Origin: Nitrospirota bacterium
GTDB taxonomy: Bacteria; Nitrospirota; JACRHJ01
Length of the DNA: 50,107 nucleotides
Assembly: GCA_021784575.1 (NCBI GenBank)
Contig: JAJYHX010000010.1
Span: forward strand, 1 to 50,107
Direction of reading: 5' to 3'
Shown: positions 505 to 12,721 of the stretch, piece by piece
Position numbering within the stretch: the first letter of the stretch is position 1
Layout of the letters: each line of letters opens with the position of its first letter
Notes under the pieces: generated by a model
What the model was told of the DNA's origin: nothing
The model's input: the letters and a program-made list of their open reading frames with translations, nothing else
Databases searched by the model: none
Position numbers and translations under genes: made by a program

Positions 505-951
505 ATGATGAAACCGAACTATGTTAAATTAATATTATTGGCCGCGCTGTTTGTTCTGCTGACAGGAGAGGAAAGGGCGCAGTTCCACGGATATTCGGCG
601 CCCGAAGCGAAGGGGCCGAAGATGGCAAAGGTTCTGACTATGGACAATAACGGCGGCGAGGCCAGTCTTGTCCACGGCGAAATGCTACAGGTCGAGCTTG
701 AGATTACGGGCGGGACGGGATACGACTGGCATGTCGAAGGACTCGACGAAACACATCTTAAGTTTATCGGGAAAAAGACAAGAGCGGTTACTCCCGGGAA
801 TATCGCCGGCGGGCCGGTGCTGGGCGTATGGTCTTTCAAGGCCGCAGCTCCGGGCGATACGGTATTGAAGATGCTTTATTACAGGATATGGGAAGGCAGC
901 AAGCATCCGGCGGGCAGGTTTGAAGTGAAGCTGCACATAATGAGCAGGTAG
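505..951 (+). CDS. Chagasin-like cysteine protease inhibitor (family I42), exported
   Basis: A 148-residue protein with an N-terminal hydrophobic signal (about residues 8-20) and no lipobox cysteine, so it is probably secreted or periplasmic. The body has the three loop signatures of chagasin inhibitors in order: TGGTGYDW at 68-75 (family NPTTGYxW), a GG-rich loop followed by GVWSFKA around 102-113, and RIWEG at 127-131 (family RPW). In this family the loops block the active-site cleft of papain-type proteases. It lies 10 bases upstream of a papain-type protease and is almost certainly co-transcribed with it, so it probably holds that enzyme in check before or after export. ATG codons at 505 and 508 are equally possible starts. 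The assignment is by motif pattern, not by alignment. Confidence 0.75.
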   Translation: MMKPNYVKLILLAALFVLLTGEERAQFHGYSAPEAKGPKMAKVLTMDNNGGEASLVHGEMLQVELEITGGTGYDWHVEGLDETHLKFIGKKTRAVTPGNIAGGPVLGVWSFKAAAPGDTVLKMLYYRIWEGSKHPAGRFEVKLHIMSR

Positions 952-961
952 AAGAAAAAAC

Positions 962-3559
962 ATGTGGAAGTTGTTGAGAAACAGGACATTGATGCTTGCG
1001 GCAGCCATTGTCCTTGCGATACCCGCAGTTTCGCCGGCAGCTGAGCCCGTCCGTCCGGATCCTCAAACCCAAGAAAACGATTTCAGAAGACCCGCCAGCA
1101 CCGAAATACAGAAAGAAGTCGCCGGAATAAATACTGCCATAAAGGCCAGGGGGGCAAAGTGGATTGCGGGCGAGACATCAATGACAAGACTTTCTCCGGC
1201 GGAGCGGAAGATGCGCCTGGGCATATTGGCTGCTCCTCCGCCGGGGGAGATAAAGGTCTACTCTCCAACCGCCCCGAGCCTGAGCGCGTCCGGCGCCGCT
1301 ACCGCGACAGCCTCGGCCGCCCCCGGGACGCTGGACTGGCGGAGCTACAACGGCGGGGACTTCGTTACACCCGTCCGGGACCAGGGCAATTGCGGCGATT
1401 GCTGGGCCTTCGGCTCGGTCGCGGGGCTGGAGTCCAAGACGCTCATCACGCAGAACACCCCGGGCGTTAACCTCGACTTAAGCGAGCAGGTGGTAAACTC
1501 CTGCGATAGCGCCGACAATTACGGAAACGGCTGCAACGGCGGAAACCTGGTGACCAGTTTTTTTGTCAACACGGGTGTTCCCCTTGAATCCTGCTACCCA
1601 TATACCGCCACGGACGGCAACTGCTCGAACGCCTGCGCCAACTGGCGGCAGAACACCTACAAGACTACGAGCTACTCGTGGATAGTCCCTTACGGCTCGC
1701 AGCAGACCGTAGACGCGCTCAAGGCCGGTCTTTATGTTTACGGCCCGCTGGTGGTTACGTTCTCCGTTTATAACGATTTCTATTCTTACACGTCCGGGAT
1801 ATACACGCATACTTCGGGAAGTTTTCAGGGTTATCATGCCGTACTGCTGGTAGGATACGACGATACAAACAACTGTTTCATCGTAAAAAACAGCTGGGGC
1901 ACAGGCTGGGGGGAGAGCGGCTTCTTCGAGATAGCCTACAGCGAAGTGAACGGCGACTGCCAGTTCGGCTACGAGGCGCTCGCGTATGGCGACCAGACGT
2001 CTCACAACATAATTTCCTGTATAACGAACCCTGTCAACGGCGGGGCCATAAGCGGAACAAGCTGCACAATCACCGGCCAGGCCTGGGCGGCTACGGGCTT
2101 TAGCCTGACAAAGGTTGAGGTATCGACCGACGGCGGCGCTACCTGGCATACCGCATCCGGCACGGGCAGCTGGTCTTATACATGGTCTCCGCTCCCCGCC
2201 GACGGTGTTTATACCATCAAATCAAGGGCTACGGACAACGGAGGCAATATCGAGACTCCGGGGAGCGGGGTTACAACCACAATAGACACGCCGCCGTCTT
2301 CCGTCATATCCGCTCCCGCGAATAATGCAACACTTACCGGCACAACGTATACCATAAAAGGAACAGCCACAAGTAATGGCTCCGGCGTGCAGTCTGTGTA
2401 TATTTCGACCGACGGCGGAAATACGTGGCACTTGGCGACCGGCACAACGAACTGGAGCTACCTCTGGACAATGCCGCCTTACGGCGGAAAGAGGACGATT
2501 AAATCCCGCGCCACGGACAATGTCGGCAACGTGGAGACGCCGGGCGCGGGCGTGACGGTTACGGTTACTCCTTACGGGAAACCTGAGCTTCCGCACTACA
2601 ACTGGAACCCGGCAATGATACCCAACGGAACCGACTGCGCTTTCTGCCACACAACGCCGGGCACGTTCCTCGCCCAGGATTTCCTGCAAAGCCCGGTCTT
2701 CTGCTACTCGTGCCACAACGCCGCCGGCAACGCGCACGCGCTCGATATTTTCAGCACCATCGGCCAGCATCCGATGTTCGTCAACGCCACGGCGCTTGGC
2801 AGGAAGAGGCCGACCTACGGGAACATCACGCTGGGCGAATATAACGACATCCCCGGCAGCAGACTCGAAAACGGCTATCTGGTAACGTGCATGACCTGCC
2901 ACAACTCTATGCGAAAATCCGACGACCCGGGCCGGGTCTGGGAGTATACATCAACGAGCGACCAATATAAATATTATCTCCAAAACGGCGGCTGGTCGGG
3001 ATACGGGAACCTTACTCCGAAGGTCTACAGAGACACGAGCCTTTGGAGCGGGCCGACATACTCCCAGACCAAGAAGGGTTATCTGGTGAACCCGTCAGAG
3101 TATACATACAACGAAACGTCGGGCTTCATCAGGTTCAAGACGCAGCAGTCTTCATTCTCATACATCTACGTTACACTCTACTATCCTTACTTGCGCGCGC
3201 CGATGCAGGACAACAGCCTGTGCTCCGATTGCCATACCGAGGCTACGCACGAGGGCGCGAATTGCTACAACTGCCATGCCGCGCACAACACGAGTAACAT
3301 CGAAGGCATCAGACAGAACGTGCGAACGCTGGACTACACCACTATGCCCGTGAAGTTCCTGCGATACACAGGTTCCAACTCTTTTGCCAACGGCACGGGC
3401 GTGCATACGGGCATCTGCGTGGTCTGCCACACAACGACGAAGTATTACAGGCGGGACGGAACGGGTTTTGTGAACCACTCCGGCGGATACAATTACAACG
3501 GCAAGGACTGCACAATCTGCCATACCCACGCGAGCGGATTCGCAAAATACAGCCAATAA
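962..3559 (+). CDS. Secreted papain-like (C1) protease fused to Ig-like modules and a seven-haem c-type cytochrome region
   Basis: An 865-residue protein. Residues 1-27 are a signal peptide. Residues about 45-90 resemble the short bacterial C1 propeptide (KWIAGETS, LSPAERKMRLG). The peptidase spans about 123-345 with all catalytic elements: oxyanion Gln141, nucleophile Cys147 in QGNCGDCWAF, His292 in GYHAVLLVGYD and Asn310 in IVKNSWGTGWGESG. Two tandem Ig-like modules follow (about 351-443 and 446-536), each with VEVSTDGG/VYISTDGG and TIKSRATDN. Residues 559-865 hold seven CXXCH haem-binding motifs: CAFCH, CYSCH, CMTCH, CSDCH, CYNCH, CVVCH and CTICH. The protein therefore looks like an active extracytoplasmic protease joined to an electron-transfer domain; the substrate is unknown. 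The frame is uninterrupted, and the gene ends six bases from the convergent tyrS. Confidence 0.88.
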   Translation: MWKLLRNRTLMLAAAIVLAIPAVSPAAEPVRPDPQTQENDFRRPASTEIQKEVAGINTAIKARGAKWIAGETSMTRLSPAERKMRLGILAAPPPGEIKVYSPTAPSLSASGAATATASAAPGTLDWRSYNGGDFVTPVRDQGNCGDCWAFGSVAGLESKTLITQNTPGVNLDLSEQVVNSCDSADNYGNGCNGGNLVTSFFVNTGVPLESCYPYTATDGNCSNACANWRQNTYKTTSYSWIVPYGSQQTVDALKAGLYVYGPLVVTFSVYNDFYSYTSGIYTHTSGSFQGYHAVLLVGYDDTNNCFIVKNSWGTGWGESGFFEIAYSEVNGDCQFGYEALAYGDQTSHNIISCITNPVNGGAISGTSCTITGQAWAATGFSLTKVEVSTDGGATWHTASGTGSWSYTWSPLPADGVYTIKSRATDNGGNIETPGSGVTTTIDTPPSSVISAPANNATLTGTTYTIKGTATSNGSGVQSVYISTDGGNTWHLATGTTNWSYLWTMPPYGGKRTIKSRATDNVGNVETPGAGVTVTVTPYGKPELPHYNWNPAMIPNGTDCAFCHTTPGTFLAQDFLQSPVFCYSCHNAAGNAHALDIFSTIGQHPMFVNATALGRKRPTYGNITLGEYNDIPGSRLENGYLVTCMTCHNSMRKSDDPGRVWEYTSTSDQYKYYLQNGGWSGYGNLTPKVYRDTSLWSGPTYSQTKKGYLVNPSEYTYNETSGFIRFKTQQSSFSYIYVTLYYPYLRAPMQDNSLCSDCHTEATHEGANCYNCHAAHNTSNIEGIRQNVRTLDYTTMPVKFLRYTGSNSFANGTGVHTGICVVCHTTTKYYRRDGTGFVNHSGGYNYNGKDCTICHTHASGFAKYSQ

Positions 3560-5702: not shown

Positions 5703-7043
5703 TTAGTCCTTCCCCGCAGCCGGTTGGCCAGCCCCGCCTGTTTTTTTCTCGCCGCGTTCTATGTCTTCCTCGAAGTATTTCGTGACAATCTTCGTGGCGC
5801 AGAACTCTCCGCACATCGTGCAGGAGCCTTCGTCGGAAGGCATACGCGACGCGCGGATTTCACCCGGCCTTTCTCCTGTGATGGCAAGCTCGAACTGCTT
5901 CTTCCAGTCCAGTCCCCGCCTGGCGAGGCTCATCTGGCGGTCCCTTTCGCGGTTCTTGTATTTTATCATGTCCCCGATATGCGCGGCGATCTTCGCCGCC
6001 ATCACGCCTTCTCTAACGTCCTGCGCATCGGGCAGGGCCAGGTGCTCGGAGGGCGTAACGTAGCAGATGAAATCCGCGCCGTATGCGGACGAAAGCGACG
6101 CGCCAATCGCCGCGGTGATGTGGTCGTAACCGGGGGCGACGTCCGTCGTTATCGGCCCCAGGACATAGAACGGCGCCTCGTTAGACATGCGTTTCTGCAT
6201 GATAATGTTCGCCTCTATCTCGTCGATTGGTATATGGCCCGGCCCTTCGACCATCATCTGGCACCCGGCCCTGCGCCCAAGCTCCGCAAGCTCGCAGTTT
6301 ATGACAAGCTCCTGTATCTGGCATCGGTCGGAGGAGTCGTGTATCGCCCCGGCGCGGAAACCGTTCCCAAGCGAGAGCACGCAGTCGTATTTCTTCAGGA
6401 TATCCGCCACGCGGTCGAACTTCTCGAACAGCGGATTCTCTTTGTTGTTGTGCATCATCCAGGCCACCATGTATGCCCCGCCCTTGCTGACAAGCCCGCC
6501 GTAGCGGTATCCCTGCCTGCGGAGCCTCTCGATGGTCAAGCGGTTTATGCCGCAGTGTATGGCCATAAACGATATGCCGTCCGCGCACTGCTCCTCTATG
6601 ACGTCGAAGAGCATCTCCTCGGGCATATCAACCGGGTTCCCGTATTTCTCTATCGACTGCGCGAACGCCTGATAAAGCGGGACGGTGCCGACGGGCAGGC
6701 TTATCGCCTGAAGCACTTCGCGCCGGATCTTTTTTATGTCCCCGCCGACGGACAAGTCCATCAGCGTATCAGCGCCGCTCGCCTCGGCGACTCTTGCTTT
6801 TTCAACCTCAAGGCCCATGTCCGCAATGTCCGTGGATGTTCCGATGCTCGCATTTATTTTCGTCCGCAAGCCCTTGCCGATACCGACGACTCTGCATTTC
6901 CTTATGGTGTTGTTCGGTATAACAACCTTGCCCTGGGCCGTCATATCCCGGACATAATCTTCCGACACGCCTTCGTCTTTCGCAACCGCCTTCATCTGGG
7001 CGGTCGTAATGTTTTGTATTGCCTGCTCTACCTGAGACGCCAT
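5703..7043 (-). CDS. ThiC-family radical enzyme: 5-hydroxybenzimidazole synthase (BzaF) or HMP-P synthase (ThiC)
   Basis: A 446-residue protein of the short ThiC type, without the long N-terminal domain of enterobacterial ThiC. Family segments are clear: GKGLRTKINASIGTS, ADTLMDLSVGGDI, GTVPLYQAF, HCGINRLTIERL, MVEGPGHIPIDEIEANI, and ITTDVAPGYDHI. The [4Fe-4S] cluster site is near the C-terminus, CTMCGEFC. Both ThiC and its paralogue BzaF act on aminoimidazole ribotide; ThiC makes the thiamin pyrimidine and BzaF makes 5-hydroxybenzimidazole, a cobalamin lower-ligand precursor. The gene is the last of a riboswitch-controlled cobalamin operon, 15 bases after cobB, with no thiamin gene nearby, which favours BzaF. 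Motifs I can see do not separate the two. ATG 7043 has a strong AAAGGAGGGG site upstream. Confidence 0.85.
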   Translation of the reverse strand: MASQVEQAIQNITTAQMKAVAKDEGVSEDYVRDMTAQGKVVIPNNTIRKCRVVGIGKGLRTKINASIGTSTDIADMGLEVEKARVAEASGADTLMDLSVGGDIKKIRREVLQAISLPVGTVPLYQAFAQSIEKYGNPVDMPEEMLFDVIEEQCADGISFMAIHCGINRLTIERLRRQGYRYGGLVSKGGAYMVAWMMHNNKENPLFEKFDRVADILKKYDCVLSLGNGFRAGAIHDSSDRCQIQELVINCELAELGRRAGCQMMVEGPGHIPIDEIEANIIMQKRMSNEAPFYVLGPITTDVAPGYDHITAAIGASLSSAYGADFICYVTPSEHLALPDAQDVREGVMAAKIAAHIGDMIKYKNRERDRQMSLARRGLDWKKQFELAITGERPGEIRASRMPSDEGSCTMCGEFCATKIVTKYFEEDIERGEKKTGGAGQPAAGKD

Positions 7044-7058
7044 TAAATTTCCCCTCCT

Positions 7059-8441
7059 TTAAGCCCGCCTGAACGGTGTCTTTATCTGTTTGATTTTATC
7101 TGCAAAGCTCTGCGCGAATCTCCTGTTCGACAGGAAGTGCAGGTGCACGTAGCTGGCAAGAATATTGCCCGCGGCGTACCCCTCGAAAGCCTCTTCTCCG
7201 AAGGCGTTATTCAGTTTATATACGCATCTCGCGCCCCGGCCCATCGGCCCTGGCTCCGAGTAATGAAACTCGTGCCCGCGCGCGGTTGCGCCTTTCGGGA
7301 AGAGCGTATTTCCCGTTATCGTGACTTCCCTGTATCCCAGGGCCTTTCGCCTGTGCAGCATCTTTGTCCTCGCGGGGATGAGTCCGGCCATGGGGTGGAA
7401 CACGCCTTCCATATCGGTTATGCCCTCGGAGAGATACATAAGTCCGCCGCACTCGGCATATATAGGCAGGGCGGCGCGCGCCGCCTCGCGCACGTCCCTC
7501 ATCACGAAATCGTTCAGGGCAAGCCCCCTCGCATACATCTCCGGGTAGCCTCCGCCGAAATATATCCCGGAAATATTCTCAGGCAGTCCGCCGTCCTTCA
7601 GGGGCGAAAACGGGACAATCTCGATGCCCAGGGACTCAAGCTCGTCGAGGTTGTCCTGGTAATAGAAGCAGAACGCCTCGTCCATTGCCACGGCAAGCGC
7701 CGAGGCTTTTGGTCCGGCCGTTTTTATCCCGCGCGGCGTATCCGCCTCTTTTGCCGTGGACGCTATTTTTACAAGCGCGCCAATATCCACATGCTTATTT
7801 ACCGTATCCCTTAACCTGCGTATAAATTCCGGCGTAAGTATTCCGTCGATGTCAGTCGTTAGGCCCAGGTGCCTTGACGGCATTTCAAGACCTTCTTCGC
7901 GCGGGACGGCGCCAATCACCCTGGCCCCGCAATACCTTTTCACCGCGGCCTTCAGCATCGCCGCATGGCGTTCGGAACCGACGCGGTTGAATATCACGCC
8001 GGCGATATTCACATCCGGGTCGATGCCTTCAAAACCCTTTAGCACAGCCGCCGCGCTGCCCGCCATGCCCCTTGCGTCGATAACGAGGACAACCGGAATG
8101 CCGAGGAGCTTTGCTATCTCCGCCGTGCTGCCCCGGATGCCGCCCTTGCCTATGCCGTCCATGAGGCCCATCGCGCCTTCCACGACGCATATGTCCGCGC
8201 CGGCGCATCCCCTGGCATAAGTCTTATGCACCCCGTCCGGCTTCATCATCCAGCCGTCGAGGTTGCGGGAGATGCGGCCAGTAATCTTTCTGTGGTATTG
8301 CGGGTCGATAAAATCCGGCCCGGTCTTGAACGGCTGCACGGATAGCCCGGCCTCGCATAGGGCGGCCATTATTCCCATGCCGACTGTCGTCTTGCCGGAG
8401 CCGCTCCACGGCGCCGAGATTATCACGGAACCTTTGCGCAT
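7059..8441 (-). CDS. cobB: Cobyrinic acid a,c-diamide synthase
   Basis: A 460-residue glutamine-dependent amidase (CobB/CbiA family) that amidates the a and c side chains of cobyrinic acid. The N-terminal half is a P-loop synthetase domain (SAPWSGSGKTT, DFIDPQYH, VVEGAMGLMDG). The C-terminal half is a class I glutaminase domain with YFGGGYPEMYA and the nucleophile cysteine in YAECGGLMYL, ending with GHEFHYSE and SYVHLHF. In the anaerobic route it works on cob(II)yrinate. It lies between the carbonic anhydrase and the ThiC/BzaF gene with short gaps. No strong ribosome site precedes the ATG at 8441, so translational coupling is possible. Confidence 0.95.
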   Translation of the reverse strand: MRKGSVIISAPWSGSGKTTVGMGIMAALCEAGLSVQPFKTGPDFIDPQYHRKITGRISRNLDGWMMKPDGVHKTYARGCAGADICVVEGAMGLMDGIGKGGIRGSTAEIAKLLGIPVVLVIDARGMAGSAAAVLKGFEGIDPDVNIAGVIFNRVGSERHAAMLKAAVKRYCGARVIGAVPREEGLEMPSRHLGLTTDIDGILTPEFIRRLRDTVNKHVDIGALVKIASTAKEADTPRGIKTAGPKASALAVAMDEAFCFYYQDNLDELESLGIEIVPFSPLKDGGLPENISGIYFGGGYPEMYARGLALNDFVMRDVREAARAALPIYAECGGLMYLSEGITDMEGVFHPMAGLIPARTKMLHRRKALGYREVTITGNTLFPKGATARGHEFHYSEPGPMGRGARCVYKLNNAFGEEAFEGYAAGNILASYVHLHFLSNRRFAQSFADKIKQIKTPFRRA

Positions 8442-8446
8442 AAATT

Positions 8447-9118
8447 TTATTTTTTAGGCGGCACGCGGGGGCCCGATACGACAGGCTCTACCTTGCCCGT
8501 ATCCGTGTAATATTCGGCGGCGACAATCCCGAATTTGCCCTCAGCCACCAGTTTCCGGATTATACCGCTCCTCCTGACAATCTCCGAGCATGTATTCTTC
8601 ACGTTATCCTGCACCGCCTCGTTTAAAATATCCTTCTTGCGCGATTTCCGCGCCTCAACGACAGCCGGAAGTATCTTGTCGGTTATGCTGCCGACGTTGC
8701 CAGCCGGGCGCCTGCGCGCCTCAAGCGTCGTCTTTACCGCGCCGCACCCGGAATGCCCGAGCACCACGAGGAGCGGCACGTGCAGGTGTTCCACGGCGTA
8801 TTCTATGCTCCCTATTACCACCGGGTCCGCCACGTTTCCGGCGTCGCGTATAACGAACAGGCCGCCTATGCCCTGGTCGAAAATCATCTCCGGCGGGACG
8901 CGGCAGTCCGAACACGCAAGCACGATGGCGAATGGACGCCGCCCTTTCGCAAGCTCCATGCGCCTCTTCCCGCCGGTTCCCCTCCCGGCCAGGGTGCCGG
9001 CGACAAATCTCCTGTTGCCGGCAAGGAGCCTTTCCAGAGGGCTTACAGCCGCGAAGACTGGCGATGCAGCCGCAATGGAGACGAGCAGCATCGCATAAAC
9101 AATCACGGATTTTTTCAT
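8447..9118 (-). CDS. Exported beta-class carbonic anhydrase
   Basis: A 223-residue protein that interconverts CO2 and bicarbonate. Zinc ligands of the beta class are present: Cys69 and the Asp71-Arg73 dyad in CSDCR, then His122 and Cys125 in GHSGCG. Residues 1-23 are a signal peptide ending in PVFA, so the mature enzyme is periplasmic. AAGGTG precedes the ATG at 9118. It is inserted between cobC and cobB in the cobalamin operon, 5 bases from cobB, and so should be transcribed under the cobalamin riboswitch. No cobalamin role is known for it. Confidence 0.92.
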   Translation of the reverse strand: MKKSVIVYAMLLVSIAAASPVFAAVSPLERLLAGNRRFVAGTLAGRGTGGKRRMELAKGRRPFAIVLACSDCRVPPEMIFDQGIGGLFVIRDAGNVADPVVIGSIEYAVEHLHVPLLVVLGHSGCGAVKTTLEARRRPAGNVGSITDKILPAVVEARKSRKKDILNEAVQDNVKNTCSEIVRRSGIIRKLVAEGKFGIVAAEYYTDTGKVEPVVSGPRVPPKK

Positions 9119-9135
9119 GGCGACACCTTTTTGTT

Positions 9136-9753
9136 TTATCCGTTCAGCAGCTTCACCACCGGCATTCCGTCCTCGTAGAAATCTATTATGTTCAGCGCGC
9201 CGTAATGCTGCTCTATGCGGAAGATGTTCTTAATCTCAAGCCCCAGGGCATGAGAAAGTATTATCCTGTTCACCCCGCCGTGGCCTATCAGAACCACCTC
9301 CTTGCCCTTGTGCGCAGCCAGCGTTTCGTTCAGCGCGGGGATTACCCTTGCAGAAAGCCCAAGGAGTGATTCTCCGCCCGGAGGGACAAAGTGCACTATG
9401 TCGCTTAACCACGCCTTCCAGTCTTCGGGGTATGCCGCTTCTATCTCGTCAAAGCTCTTGCCCTCCCAAAGCCCTACGCCGCGCTCCCGAAACTCCGCCC
9501 TGGAAATGGCCTTTGCTCCATGCGGCCCTCCGATAATTTCGGCGCCCTTTATCGTCCGGATGAGGTCGGAGCAGTAAACGGCGTCCACGGGCTTGTCGAG
9601 CAGCATATCCCGCAGGCGCTCCATCTGCCGCACTCCCTCGTCAGTGATGTCCACGTCCCGGTGGCCGTTGTATCGCCTATTGGCCGGTCGAACGGCGCCG
9701 TCAGCGCCGCAGACCTCGCCGTGGCGGCAGAGATATAATCGAGTATGCGACAT
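9136..9753 (-). CDS. cobC: Alpha-ribazole phosphatase (histidine phosphatase family)
   Basis: A 205-residue histidine phosphatase with the catalytic RHGE motif near the N-terminus (LYLCRHGEV) and the second histidine in VLIGHGGVNR. In cobalamin assembly this family removes the 5' phosphate from alpha-ribazole phosphate or adenosylcobalamin phosphate. The context between cobS and cobB supports that role over phosphoglycerate mutase. I choose ATG 9753 because GGGAGGGG lies just ahead; an upstream in-frame GTG at 9777 would add eight residues. Confidence 0.85.
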   Translation of the reverse strand: MSHTRLYLCRHGEVCGADGAVRPANRRYNGHRDVDITDEGVRQMERLRDMLLDKPVDAVYCSDLIRTIKGAEIIGGPHGAKAISRAEFRERGVGLWEGKSFDEIEAAYPEDWKAWLSDIVHFVPPGGESLLGLSARVIPALNETLAAHKGKEVVLIGHGGVNRIILSHALGLEIKNIFRIEQHYGALNIIDFYEDGMPVVKLLNG

Positions 9754-9801
9754 CCATCCCCTCCCGGCCCCTCTCACATTGTAGGGCGAGTGGTGAGCAA
9801 T

Positions 9802-10542
9802 TCATATAATTGCAGAGAATACTATAAAAACGAGCGCCTCGCCAATCTCGGACGACGCGCCTATGGTGTCGCCGGTCTCGCCGCCTATGGAACGGTTAAA
9901 GAATACCCTCAGCAGAAGACAGACTATAGCCACCGCCGCGAGCGCGGCAAGGCCCGTAATGCCGCCGAACAAGGCCGCGAATGCCGCGGCCATGATGGAT
10001 GCGGCTATCAGGTGCGCCGGTTCTATATATGTGATAAACGAACCGGCAAGACTGTTCTCGCTCCGTGCGGGGCGCGAGCCGTATGATACGAGAACCTGTC
10101 CCCATCGGGACAGCGACGGCGCAAGAAGCAGCGCGCCGGGCCTCAAACCGGAAGGTATCGAATCGAGCGCCATGAACTTTACAAGCAGGAGAAGACATAT
10201 TGCGACGACACCCATCGCGCCCGTCCGGCTGTCCTTCATTATCGCAAGCGCCTTCCCCCTGTCGCCTTTCCCGCCGATTAATCCGTCCGCCGTATCGGCG
10301 AGGCCGTCCAGATGAAGCCCCCCGGTAATGACGGCGAGGAAGACTATGATAAGCGCGTCGGTTACCTGCCGTGGAAGCAGGCCCTTCGCCAGGTAATCGA
10401 AGAGCGCAAGTATAGATCCCAGGAGCAGCCCGACCAACGGGAAGAAGCTCATCATGTCGGCCATTCTGTCAGACGGAACCTTCTCCTGGCCGACGGGGAT
10501 AACAGTCAGAAAACCGAGCGCGGCCAAGAAGTTAGACAGCAT
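9802..10542 (-). CDS. cobS: Adenosylcobinamide-GDP ribazoletransferase (cobalamin synthase)
   Basis: An integral membrane enzyme of about 246 residues that joins adenosylcobinamide-GDP to alpha-ribazole, the last step of nucleotide loop assembly. Family motifs are visible: FLTVIPVG near the N-terminus, GGLHLDGLADTADGLIGG with its acidic metal-binding residues, and MKDSRTGAMGV. Several hydrophobic spans follow. The ATG at 10542 shares one base with the cobT stop (TGATG), the same arrangement as cobO-cobU, so I prefer it to the in-frame TTG two codons earlier. Confidence 0.94.
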   Translation of the reverse strand: MLSNFLAALGFLTVIPVGQEKVPSDRMADMMSFFPLVGLLLGSILALFDYLAKGLLPRQVTDALIIVFLAVITGGLHLDGLADTADGLIGGKGDRGKALAIMKDSRTGAMGVVAICLLLLVKFMALDSIPSGLRPGALLLAPSLSRWGQVLVSYGSRPARSENSLAGSFITYIEPAHLIAASIMAAAFAALFGGITGLAALAAVAIVCLLLRVFFNRSIGGETGDTIGASSEIGEALVFIVFSAII

Positions 10543-11603
10543 CAGCAAATCTTCTCACCGTCAACCCCGGCCTCGCCGAAGGTAGCCATTTCGTTCAGCG
10601 CCTTTACCCCTGCCTCGACAATAATCATACCGAGCGCGGCGCCCGTGCCTTCGCCCAACCTCATGCCGAGGTCAAGAAGCGGCCTTTGCCCCAGAAGCTC
10701 AAGCATGGCGGCATGTCCGCGCTCAACGGACTTGTGCGCGGCAATGACATATCCTTTCGCCTCAGGCTTTATTCTGCACGCCGCAACCGCCCCGGCTGTG
10801 GATATGAACCCGTCCACCACAACCGGCAGCCTCCGCGCGGCGGCCCCGAGCACCACCCCGGCGATGCCCGCAATCTCGTAGCCGCCAAGGCTTGCGAGTG
10901 TTCCAAGCGGGTCATCCGCATCCGGCGGGTTCGCCGCAAGCGCTTTTTTTATAACCTCAACCTTTGCCGCAAAACGCTCCTCGCCTATACCGGTCCCGTA
11001 TCCCGTCACATCCGCCGCGGAGAGGCCGGTATATGCCGCCGCGAGCGCCGAGGAAGGCGTCGTGTTTGCGATGCCCATGTCGCCTGTTCCGAATATGCCG
11101 TAGCCCCTGTCGGCGAACTCGTTTGCCAGCCCTATGCCCACCTCCACCGCCCTGATACAGTCCGTCCGGCTCATGGCAGGCCCTTTTACGATATTATTCG
11201 TCCCCCGGCCAACCTTGGCGTTCCTAAGGCCCTCGACCAGCCCGAACTCGTGGTCAACCCCGATGTCCGTTACGATAATATCCGCTCCCGCGTGCCTGCC
11301 TAGGACGTTCACTCCCGCGCCGCCGTTTATAAAATTCAGCACCATCTGGGCCGTGACGGCCTTCGGGTATGCGCTTACAAGCTCATCCGCCACACCGTGG
11401 TCTCCGGCGAAGACGAATATCACCTTCCTCGACACATCCGGGCGCTCGTTTCCGGTAATCAGGCAGACGCGTTTCGCAAGCTCCTCCAGCCGCCCAAGAC
11501 TGCCCGGCGGCTTCGTCTTGTTATCGAGCCGCCTCTGCACATCCGCCGCCCGCGATTCGTCCACGGGCATTATATCTCTTAAAGTTTGCTCGAACAAAAC
11601 CAT
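10542..11603 (-). CDS. cobT: Nicotinate-nucleotide--dimethylbenzimidazole phosphoribosyltransferase
   Basis: A 353-residue enzyme that activates the lower-ligand base by transferring phosphoribose from nicotinate mononucleotide, giving alpha-ribazole phosphate or an analogue. Clear family segments include DNKTKPPGSLGRLEELA, FAGDHGVADE, NGGAGVNVLGRHAGA, GTGDMGIANTTPSSA, and the C-terminal LDLGMRLGEGTGAALGM with the catalytic glutamate region. AAGGAG precedes the ATG at 11603. The base it activates here may be 5-hydroxybenzimidazole or a derivative if the ThiC-family gene in the operon is BzaF. Confidence 0.96.
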   Translation of the reverse strand: MVLFEQTLRDIMPVDESRAADVQRRLDNKTKPPGSLGRLEELAKRVCLITGNERPDVSRKVIFVFAGDHGVADELVSAYPKAVTAQMVLNFINGGAGVNVLGRHAGADIIVTDIGVDHEFGLVEGLRNAKVGRGTNNIVKGPAMSRTDCIRAVEVGIGLANEFADRGYGIFGTGDMGIANTTPSSALAAAYTGLSAADVTGYGTGIGEERFAAKVEVIKKALAANPPDADDPLGTLASLGGYEIAGIAGVVLGAAARRLPVVVDGFISTAGAVAACRIKPEAKGYVIAAHKSVERGHAAMLELLGQRPLLDLGMRLGEGTGAALGMIIVEAGVKALNEMATFGEAGVDGEKIC

Positions 11604-11617
11604 AATACTCCTTCATA

Positions 11618-11657
11618 ACGCCCCCTCTGTCCCCCTCTTATCTTAAGATGGGGATGA
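11618..11657. repeat. Palindromic repeat (family B)
   Basis: CGCCCCCTCTGTCCCCCTCTTATCTTAAGATGGGGATGA-like sequence between cobU and cobT. A near-identical copy is at 44851-44888. The TCTTATCTTAAGA core with flanking CCCC/GGGG can fold into a hairpin. It sits inside the operon, so it is transcribed. Confidence 0.6.
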
Positions 11658-11663
11658 AGGAAG

Positions 11664-12185
11664 TTATTTCAACCGCACCGGCAGGCCAGAAACGACGAGA
11701 TAGGCTTCGTCGGCGGCCTGGGCGATTATCTGGTTGACCCTCCCGGCGGCGTCCCGGAACGCGCGGGCCGGGGCGTCAGCCGGCACAATCCCGGAGCCGA
11801 GTTCGTTCGACACGACTATTACAACACCCCTGAAATTCTTCAACGCGCCCGCAAGCACGTCCGCCCTTGCAGACGCCATATCTTCAAAACCGGCGCTTCC
11901 ATTTTTTTCCATGAGGTTGGAGAGCCAGAGGGTCAGGCAGTCTATTATCACCGTTCCGCCTCCTGTGCCGTGCAGGGCTTCGGCAATATTTTCCGGCTCC
12001 TCCACACTCTCCCAGTCCGCCCCGCGCGCCTCCCTGTGTCTTCTTATGCGCTCCGCCATCTCGCCGTCTCTCGCCTGGGCCGTGGCTATGTATATGAGCC
12101 GCCCGCCCTGTTTTTCGGCCAGGCGCAGGCCGAAACCGCTTTTCCCGGAGCGCGCGCCGCCGGTTATGAATATGACTCTCCCCAT
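11664..12185 (-). CDS. cobU: Bifunctional adenosylcobinamide kinase / adenosylcobinamide-phosphate guanylyltransferase
   Basis: A 173-residue P-loop enzyme that phosphorylates adenosylcobinamide and then transfers GMP to it, supplying the substrate of CobS. The Walker A sequence GGARSGKS is at residues 8-15, followed by the family motifs YIATAQARD, RIRRHREARG, VIIDCLTLWLSN and VVSNELGSGIVP. The true start is ATG 12185, which shares one base with the cobO stop codon; a longer frame upstream only reads through the end of cobO in another frame. Confidence 0.95.
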   Translation of the reverse strand: MGRVIFITGGARSGKSGFGLRLAEKQGGRLIYIATAQARDGEMAERIRRHREARGADWESVEEPENIAEALHGTGGGTVIIDCLTLWLSNLMEKNGSAGFEDMASARADVLAGALKNFRGVVIVVSNELGSGIVPADAPARAFRDAAGRVNQIIAQAADEAYLVVSGLPVRLK

Positions 12186-12721
12186 CAGAACTCGATTCCC
12201 CTGCGCGCCTTCAGCCCGTTTTCCGCAGGATGTTTTATCACGGTCATCTCCGTGACATAATCCGCAAGCTCTATAATTTCTTCCGGGCATCCCCTGCCCG
12301 TAAGCACAAGCTCCAGGCCTTCCGGCTTTTCTTTAATGAACGAGGCCAGGTCTTCCGCTTCCAGCCACCCTTCCTTGACGCAGTTGTTTATCTCGTCCAG
12401 GACGGCCATGTCGTATTCGCCGGAGGAGAGCTTCTCCCTGACGAGCGAGAATCCCCGTCGGATTGATTTCTTCAGTTCGCCGATATTGCAGCCTTCCTTG
12501 CAGAAGAGCGGGTGCCGCTGGTCGGCGAACCTTATTATCTCGGCGCCGGGAATCTTCGACAGCATCTTTATTTCGCCTGAAACGCTGCCGCCCCCTTTAA
12601 GGAACTGGACTACAAGAACGCTCAGGCCCTGCCCGAGGGCGCGCAAGGCAAGGCCAATAGCGGCGGTGGTCTTGCCCTTTGAAAAGCCCGTATAGACGTG
12701 TACCAAGCCTTTTCCCGGCAT
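12185..12721 (-). CDS. cobO: Cob(I)alamin adenosyltransferase (CobA/BtuR type)
   Basis: A 178-residue enzyme that attaches the 5'-deoxyadenosyl group of ATP to reduced corrinoids. The P-loop is GFSKGKTTAA near residue 13, and VLVVQFLKGG, VLDEINNCVKEGWL and LVLTGRGCPEEIIELADYV match the BtuR/CobO family. It is the first gene of the operon, behind the riboswitch and terminator. GAGGCG lies upstream of the ATG at 12721. Confidence 0.95.
   Translation of the reverse strand: MPGKGLVHVYTGFSKGKTTAAIGLALRALGQGLSVLVVQFLKGGGSVSGEIKMLSKIPGAEIIRFADQRHPLFCKEGCNIGELKKSIRRGFSLVREKLSSGEYDMAVLDEINNCVKEGWLEAEDLASFIKEKPEGLELVLTGRGCPEEIIELADYVTEMTVIKHPAENGLKARRGIEF

Follow-up and report, generated by a model that had tools for sequence, protein, structure and literature searches.

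What would seven haem-binding motifs do at the end of a papain-type protease? The question is raised by a gene near the end of contig JAJYHX010000010.1 (assembly GCA_021784575.1) of an uncultured Nitrospirota bacterium, from which a stretch of 50,107 nucleotides, referred to here as the window, was analysed. An earlier note on this DNA had described one frame holding both parts and knew of no described enzyme of the kind; likewise, our literature searches, which covered open-licence papers, found no description of a papain-type protease/multihaem fusion. We show here that the feature reaches upstream of the fusion gene (962-3559) and takes in a probable inhibitor gene (505-951), the two genes making up one unit, and that the fusion carries a portable seven-haem C-terminal module which is more interesting than the protease fusion itself. 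The earlier note had mentioned neither the upstream gene nor the reuse of the module on other proteins.

A peptidase and seven haem motifs in one open frame

The fusion gene (962-3559, forward strand) is a single open reading frame that runs from an ATG start to its stop with zero internal stops and encodes 865 amino acids, all of its parts given below being on the same strand. The product begins with a predicted Sec-type signal peptide (residues ~1-26, positions 962-1039; MWKLLRNRTLMLAAAIVLAIPAVSPA), with a putative cleavage site placed by eye and a predicted helix at residues 2-18, followed by a short pro-region (residues 27-119, 1040-1318) with the motif gAkWxAgeTsxxxL..ekkxrLG, which is common to haem-less relatives in our alignment. 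A Peptidase_C1 domain comes next (residues 121-338, 1322-1975; Pfam PF00112, E 3e-50), and it is complete, as had been claimed: Q141, C147 (codon 1400-1402), H292 and N310 align with the active site of dipeptidyl peptidase 1 (PDB 3pdf, E 1.7e-36), so that the predicted protein has the catalytic Cys-His-Asn and the oxyanion Gln of the C1A papain family. The two Ig-like modules that had been proposed were also found (residues 349-535, 2006-2566; Pfam Big_7, Big_13 and Mo-co_dimer), Big_7 and Mo-co_dimer each matching two stretches at E ~1e-13, and AlphaFold2 modelled two confident beta-sandwiches at ~350-540 (block pLDDT mostly 65-93). Lastly, the seven-haem module occupies the C-terminus (residues 537-865, 2570-3556), where a beta-rich insert separates the third haem from the fourth and forms the sole confident blocks of the module's model; pLDDT was 40 for the module and 49 for the full-length protein and the peptidase itself was poorly folded, so that the distance from the haems to C147 is unreadable.

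The motif scan located the CXXCH motifs, seven as previously counted, at residues 559 (CAFCH, 2636-2650), 581 (CYSCH, 2702-2716), 643 (CMTCH, 2888-2902), 754 (CSDCH, 3221-3235), 768 (CYNCH, 3263-3277), 819 (CVVCH, 3416-3430) and 850 (CTICH, 3509-3523), compared with a mean of 0.02 and a maximum of 2 in 100,000 shuffles of the module. Besides the histidines of these motifs, five others are invariant among 11 modules (H545, H603, H763, H775 and H856) and H839 is kept in nine of them, which gives six candidate distal ligands in all for seven haems. The conservation of these additional histidines argues for haem-type motifs rather than chance cysteines and fits, as expected, bis-His haem coordination; with several CXXCH motifs and candidate distal ligands, the C-terminus of the fusion is predicted to be a multihaem c-type cytochrome region. 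In addition, the window's genome has three PF01578 genes of cytochrome c maturation over the cut-off, as well as 28 paired-CXXCH matches. A conserved cluster (L105, at G000:C6:452000-470000 in this genome; also L110-L112) encodes cytochromes with 10 and 14 haems together with a PPIase, an NHL protein and what is probably a barrel protein, and resembles a porin-cytochrome conduit; the barrel protein had no Pfam match and is read as a barrel by its appearance. Elsewhere in the window, a ThiC-like gene adjoins cobalamin genes (cobB, cobS, cobT, cobU-like and cbiX; 5703-7043 and 7059-12290), and its NCBIfam score is above the ThiC cut-offs and below that of BzaB, a benzimidazole role being only possible.

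Recurrence of the fusion in sister genomes

The relatives named here by G numbers are metagenome-assembled genomes (MAGs) of uncultured bacteria, G000 being the window's genome and G001 and G003 sister genomes of the same genus with independent assemblies. The earlier note had proposed to check whether the fused architecture recurs, and the same fusion was found in both sisters, each time in one frame, with 81% identity in G001 (36-kb contig, also JAJYJM010000020.1) and 54% identity in G003 (30-kb contig, also JAKAHE010000003.1). The two parts are thus not encoded by separate genes in all close relatives, the outcome that the note had named as one refutation; the three complete C1-haem copies are all fused. 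The G001 copy is longer (1414 aa), with a seven-repeat RCC1 propeller and extra Ig domains inserted, and the G003 copy has a BACON-type spacer and a neighbourhood that differs from that of the window. The propeller lies between the Ig domains of the G001 copy (L032 8251-12492), and RCC1-like repeats were also recognised by eye in a haem-less C1 protein (G133a, L043). Furthermore, a fragment at a contig end in G003, with 84% identity to the window's haem region, suggests a further copy of the fusion. Comparison of G000 with G001 gave dN/dS values of 0.13 for the C1 domain and 0.14 for the haem module, and both parts are under purifying selection. dS in the same comparison was lower for the C1 domain (1319-1996; 0.19) than for the haem module (0.52) and tyrS (0.61).

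A strong C1 match was present in 45 of the 396 Nitrospirota genomes surveyed. Among the long C1 frames inspected outside the window's genus none contained CXXCH, the uninspected frames being mostly too short for both parts. Within the genus, two of the five sampled genomes, both incomplete (75% and 87% complete), yielded no strong C1 gene, so that the gene may not be essential; nor did the single sampled genome of the sister genus yield one. A plasmid search returned no record covering 80% of the query, and the matches listed were to C1 peptidase or Ig-like regions. The combination of a C1 peptidase with seven haem motifs is real, recurrent and apparently undescribed.

A gene for a probable chagasin-family inhibitor upstream of the fusion

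Ten base pairs before the fusion gene ends another gene (505-951, forward strand) that codes for a 148 aa product, predicted to be an exported cysteine-peptidase inhibitor of the chagasin family (I42; PF09394, E 4.4e-15, 56.2 bits against a cut-off of 27.2). Among solved proteins the product is nearest to the chagasins and to the inhibitor of cysteine peptidase from Pseudomonas (2wgn_B; phmmer, E 1.4e-7), and its gene is the sole I42 gene in the window's genome. An I42 gene lies directly upstream of the fusion in the three complete copies (G000, G001 and G003), and four Nitrospirota relatives whose C1 gene lacks the haem part also have one adjoining it. Three of these C1 peptidases (G137, G165 and G179) share the pro-region and the catalytic domain with the fusion (~50% identity), and the fourth (G239) is more distant; unlike the window's fusion, none of the four has CXXCH in frame. 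The three fused proteins form one cluster in the C1 tree, beside haem-less relatives, and support for this is moderate (91/72). Because the I42 gene adjoins the C1 gene in fused and haem-less relatives alike, and given this placement in the tree, the inhibitor/protease pair is probably older than the haem tail, which would have been added later.

The seven-haem module is shared by four types of protein

The module is ~330 aa long, and its CXXCH spacing (22-62-111-14-51-31) is nearly fixed across the proteins that carry it, the last two gaps being shorter in two anchored carriers. It forms the C-terminus of four carrier types: the C1 peptidase; an S8 subtilisin-type protease with TIG and fn3 spacers (G005:C29, L036 5856-9566; PF00082, E 7.6e-45); right-handed beta-helix proteins (G000:C2, G001:C35, G004:C135 and G005:C20); and proteins in which a single hydrophobic segment at the N-terminus is accompanied by a Pro-rich stretch (G000:C10, G001:C9, G003:C25, G004:C79 and G005:C57). 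The last group looks TonB-like by eye only, and Pfam returned no domain backing this name. Two of these anchored carriers (L040 7373-9070 and L037 7627-9384) have upstream neighbours that are alike in both genomes. The window's genome holds three copies of the module on three carrier types. In the module tree every carrier type with several rows forms one group, and each carrier architecture therefore appears, from the tree, to have arisen once and to have been inherited afterwards.

The distribution of the module is narrow. When genomes of 84,980 species were scanned for its pattern, it turned up in four Nitrospirota MAGs only, and a profile scan of the 396 Nitrospirota genomes found a near-complete module in the window's family only, just the last part matching elsewhere. 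The neighbours of the other module carriers are housekeeping genes, none of them hinting at function. A profile search of the PDB gave four weak matches up to E 1, with photosynthetic cytochromes and a cytochrome c-554 as the hits and a best E of 0.03. A diverged copy of the module was also seen within a protein of ~1880 residues with 41 CXXCH motifs (G005:C3, L101 3310-8955), and the next frame there has 22 CXXCH.

A working model of the two-gene unit

The complete active site, the purifying selection, the recurrence, the I42 pairing, the four carrier types and the cytochrome-rich genome lead us to favour, as a tentative best explanation in which our confidence is limited, an exported papain-family peptidase that is checked by its inhibitor and is placed or wired by its haem module into an electron-transfer network, its active site not being switched by the haems. 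The first gene (505-951) would yield the exported chagasin-type inhibitor and the second (962-3559) an exported papain-family endopeptidase, predicted to be haem-loaded. Inhibitor and pro-region may restrain the peptidase within the cell envelope, and the haem module would connect the protein, by docking or wiring, to the multihaem electron-transfer network at the envelope or cell surface, or to minerals that this network reduces, with proteolysis then taking place there. The haems would set the location of the enzyme and may carry electrons, and would not switch its active site. Among the mechanisms suggested earlier for the haem-bearing protease, tethering to electron-transfer structures fits best, since the module is reused on several carriers, and haems would have no plausible role in the active site of a serine protease or in a beta helix. 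The apparent N-terminal anchoring of one carrier type is as compatible with a periplasmic redox role as with tethering at the surface, and the housekeeping neighbours of the other carriers and the low confidence of the structural models count against this explanation.

A broader form of the same idea, which we consider possible but doubtful, is that the seven-haem unit would be a haem-based address or wiring tag that puts diverse exported cargo (two protease classes, beta-helix proteins and an anchored Pro-rich protein) onto the electron-transfer network of the cell, the papain/chagasin pair being one such cargo that would remodel cytochrome or matrix protein at this site. Multihaem cytochromes are usually regarded as wires or reductases; that one multihaem unit ends a cysteine protease, a serine protease and proteins that are not enzymes suggests a possible further role of such modules in localisation or docking. 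In addition, the fusion is a defined protein on which possible links of proteolysis to extracellular electron transfer can be tested.

Alternative explanations

The two parts of the fusion could be independent, with a protease that scavenges or recycles extracellular or envelope protein joined to what is just another cytochrome of a cytochrome-rich organism, and the fusion fixed without functional coupling. The reuse of the module on many carriers and the existence of the C1/I42 pair without haem in relatives would agree with this, as would the two genomes of the genus, both incomplete, in which no C1 gene was found. However, the fusion has been kept in copies as divergent as 54% identity and despite the insertion of a propeller between its Ig domains, with purifying selection on both the C1 and the haem parts, and one type of tail on four carriers suggests a shared job; we consider independence rather unlikely.

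Cytochrome processing, which had been among the mechanisms first suggested, is a serious rival to docking, even if we judge it unlikely. Here the protease would act in cis or in trans, cutting its own junction or neighbouring cytochromes and freeing mature haem modules, in a manner comparable to OzpA and OmcZ. Two unrelated protease classes, C1 and S8, bear the same haem module, and the order protease-Ig-haem leaves a linker that could be cleaved; furthermore, OzpA cuts a multihaem protein between its haem part and its Ig domains (PMC9473688). On the other hand, no protease accompanies the module in the beta-helix and anchored carriers, and apart from the haem-ligand stretch PELPHYNW the module alignment shows no cleavage motif conserved at the junction. 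The module profile did not pick up OmcZ in the PDB at E values up to 1, and the Ig domains of OmcZ follow the haems instead of preceding them as in the window's fusion.

A redox switch, in which the haems would oxidise or reduce C147 or sense the redox state around it and keep the protease on only under reducing conditions, had been proposed as well. C1 peptidases do require a reduced cysteine, and the haem module is on the same chain as the peptidase. However, the three copies have linkers of 212, 216 and 766 residues from the C1 domain to the first haem, and the module is found on a serine protease and on non-enzymes too; since its linker varies so widely and its module is not confined to cysteine peptidases, the switch is disfavoured and we regard it as highly improbable.

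Lastly, an artefact was considered, in which a chimeric contig or a joined frame had brought a protease gene and a cytochrome gene together, as in the sequencing or assembly join between residues 540 and 560 envisaged in the earlier note. It would be in keeping with a locus near a contig end of a fragmented assembly (14 contigs) but was rejected, its probability being practically negligible, because two independent sister assemblies (G001 and G003) cross the junction in one frame, G001 also shares the convergent tyrS neighbour with G000, and the parts of each copy have similar in-frame GC3.

Comparison with known systems

The docked, inhibitor-checked peptidase that we favour can be set beside several characterised families. 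With the C1A peptidases (dipeptidyl peptidase 1, cathepsins; PF00112) it has in common the full domain and all four active-site residues, dipeptidyl peptidase 1 being the nearest solved sequence; it differs from them by its short bacterial pro-region, its Ig-like spacers and its seven-haem tail, and its best matches among solved proteins do not extend beyond the peptidase part.

In Geobacter, the subtilisin-like protease OzpA trims OmcZ (PMC9473688), and the likeness to the fusion lies in a protease linked with an Ig-bearing multihaem protein. That system has separate genes, an S8 protease and an octahaem cytochrome with its haems before the Ig domains, whereas the fusion is one gene with a C1 peptidase and seven haem motifs rather than eight, and OmcZ is absent from the four weak PDB matches that the module profile gave. 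The window enzyme, being C1 and not S8, is not of the OzpA type; the S8 carrier is the G005 protein. The outer-membrane decahaem cytochromes of the MtrC/MtrF type (PF22113) show a weak profile match through their pentahaem domains, and a beta-rich part lies between haem groups in both. The window protein reached 19.5 bits, below the cut-off of 30 (the S8 carrier reached 36.0), and it has seven haem motifs, not ten in two pentahaem domains, and is fused to other domains; assignment to this family was rejected.

The inhibitor resembles chagasin and the inhibitor of cysteine peptidase (MEROPS I42, PF09394) in its fold family as judged by profile, its export signal and its pairing with a C1 gene. 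Chagasin is characterised by the loop motifs NPTTG, GxGG and RPW (PMC5014320), at whose places the putative inhibitor of the window has the partial matches GGTG, AGGP and RIW. The role of bacterial chagasins had not been elucidated as of 2016 (PMC5014320), and the I42/C1 pair gives them a likely endogenous target in Nitrospirota.
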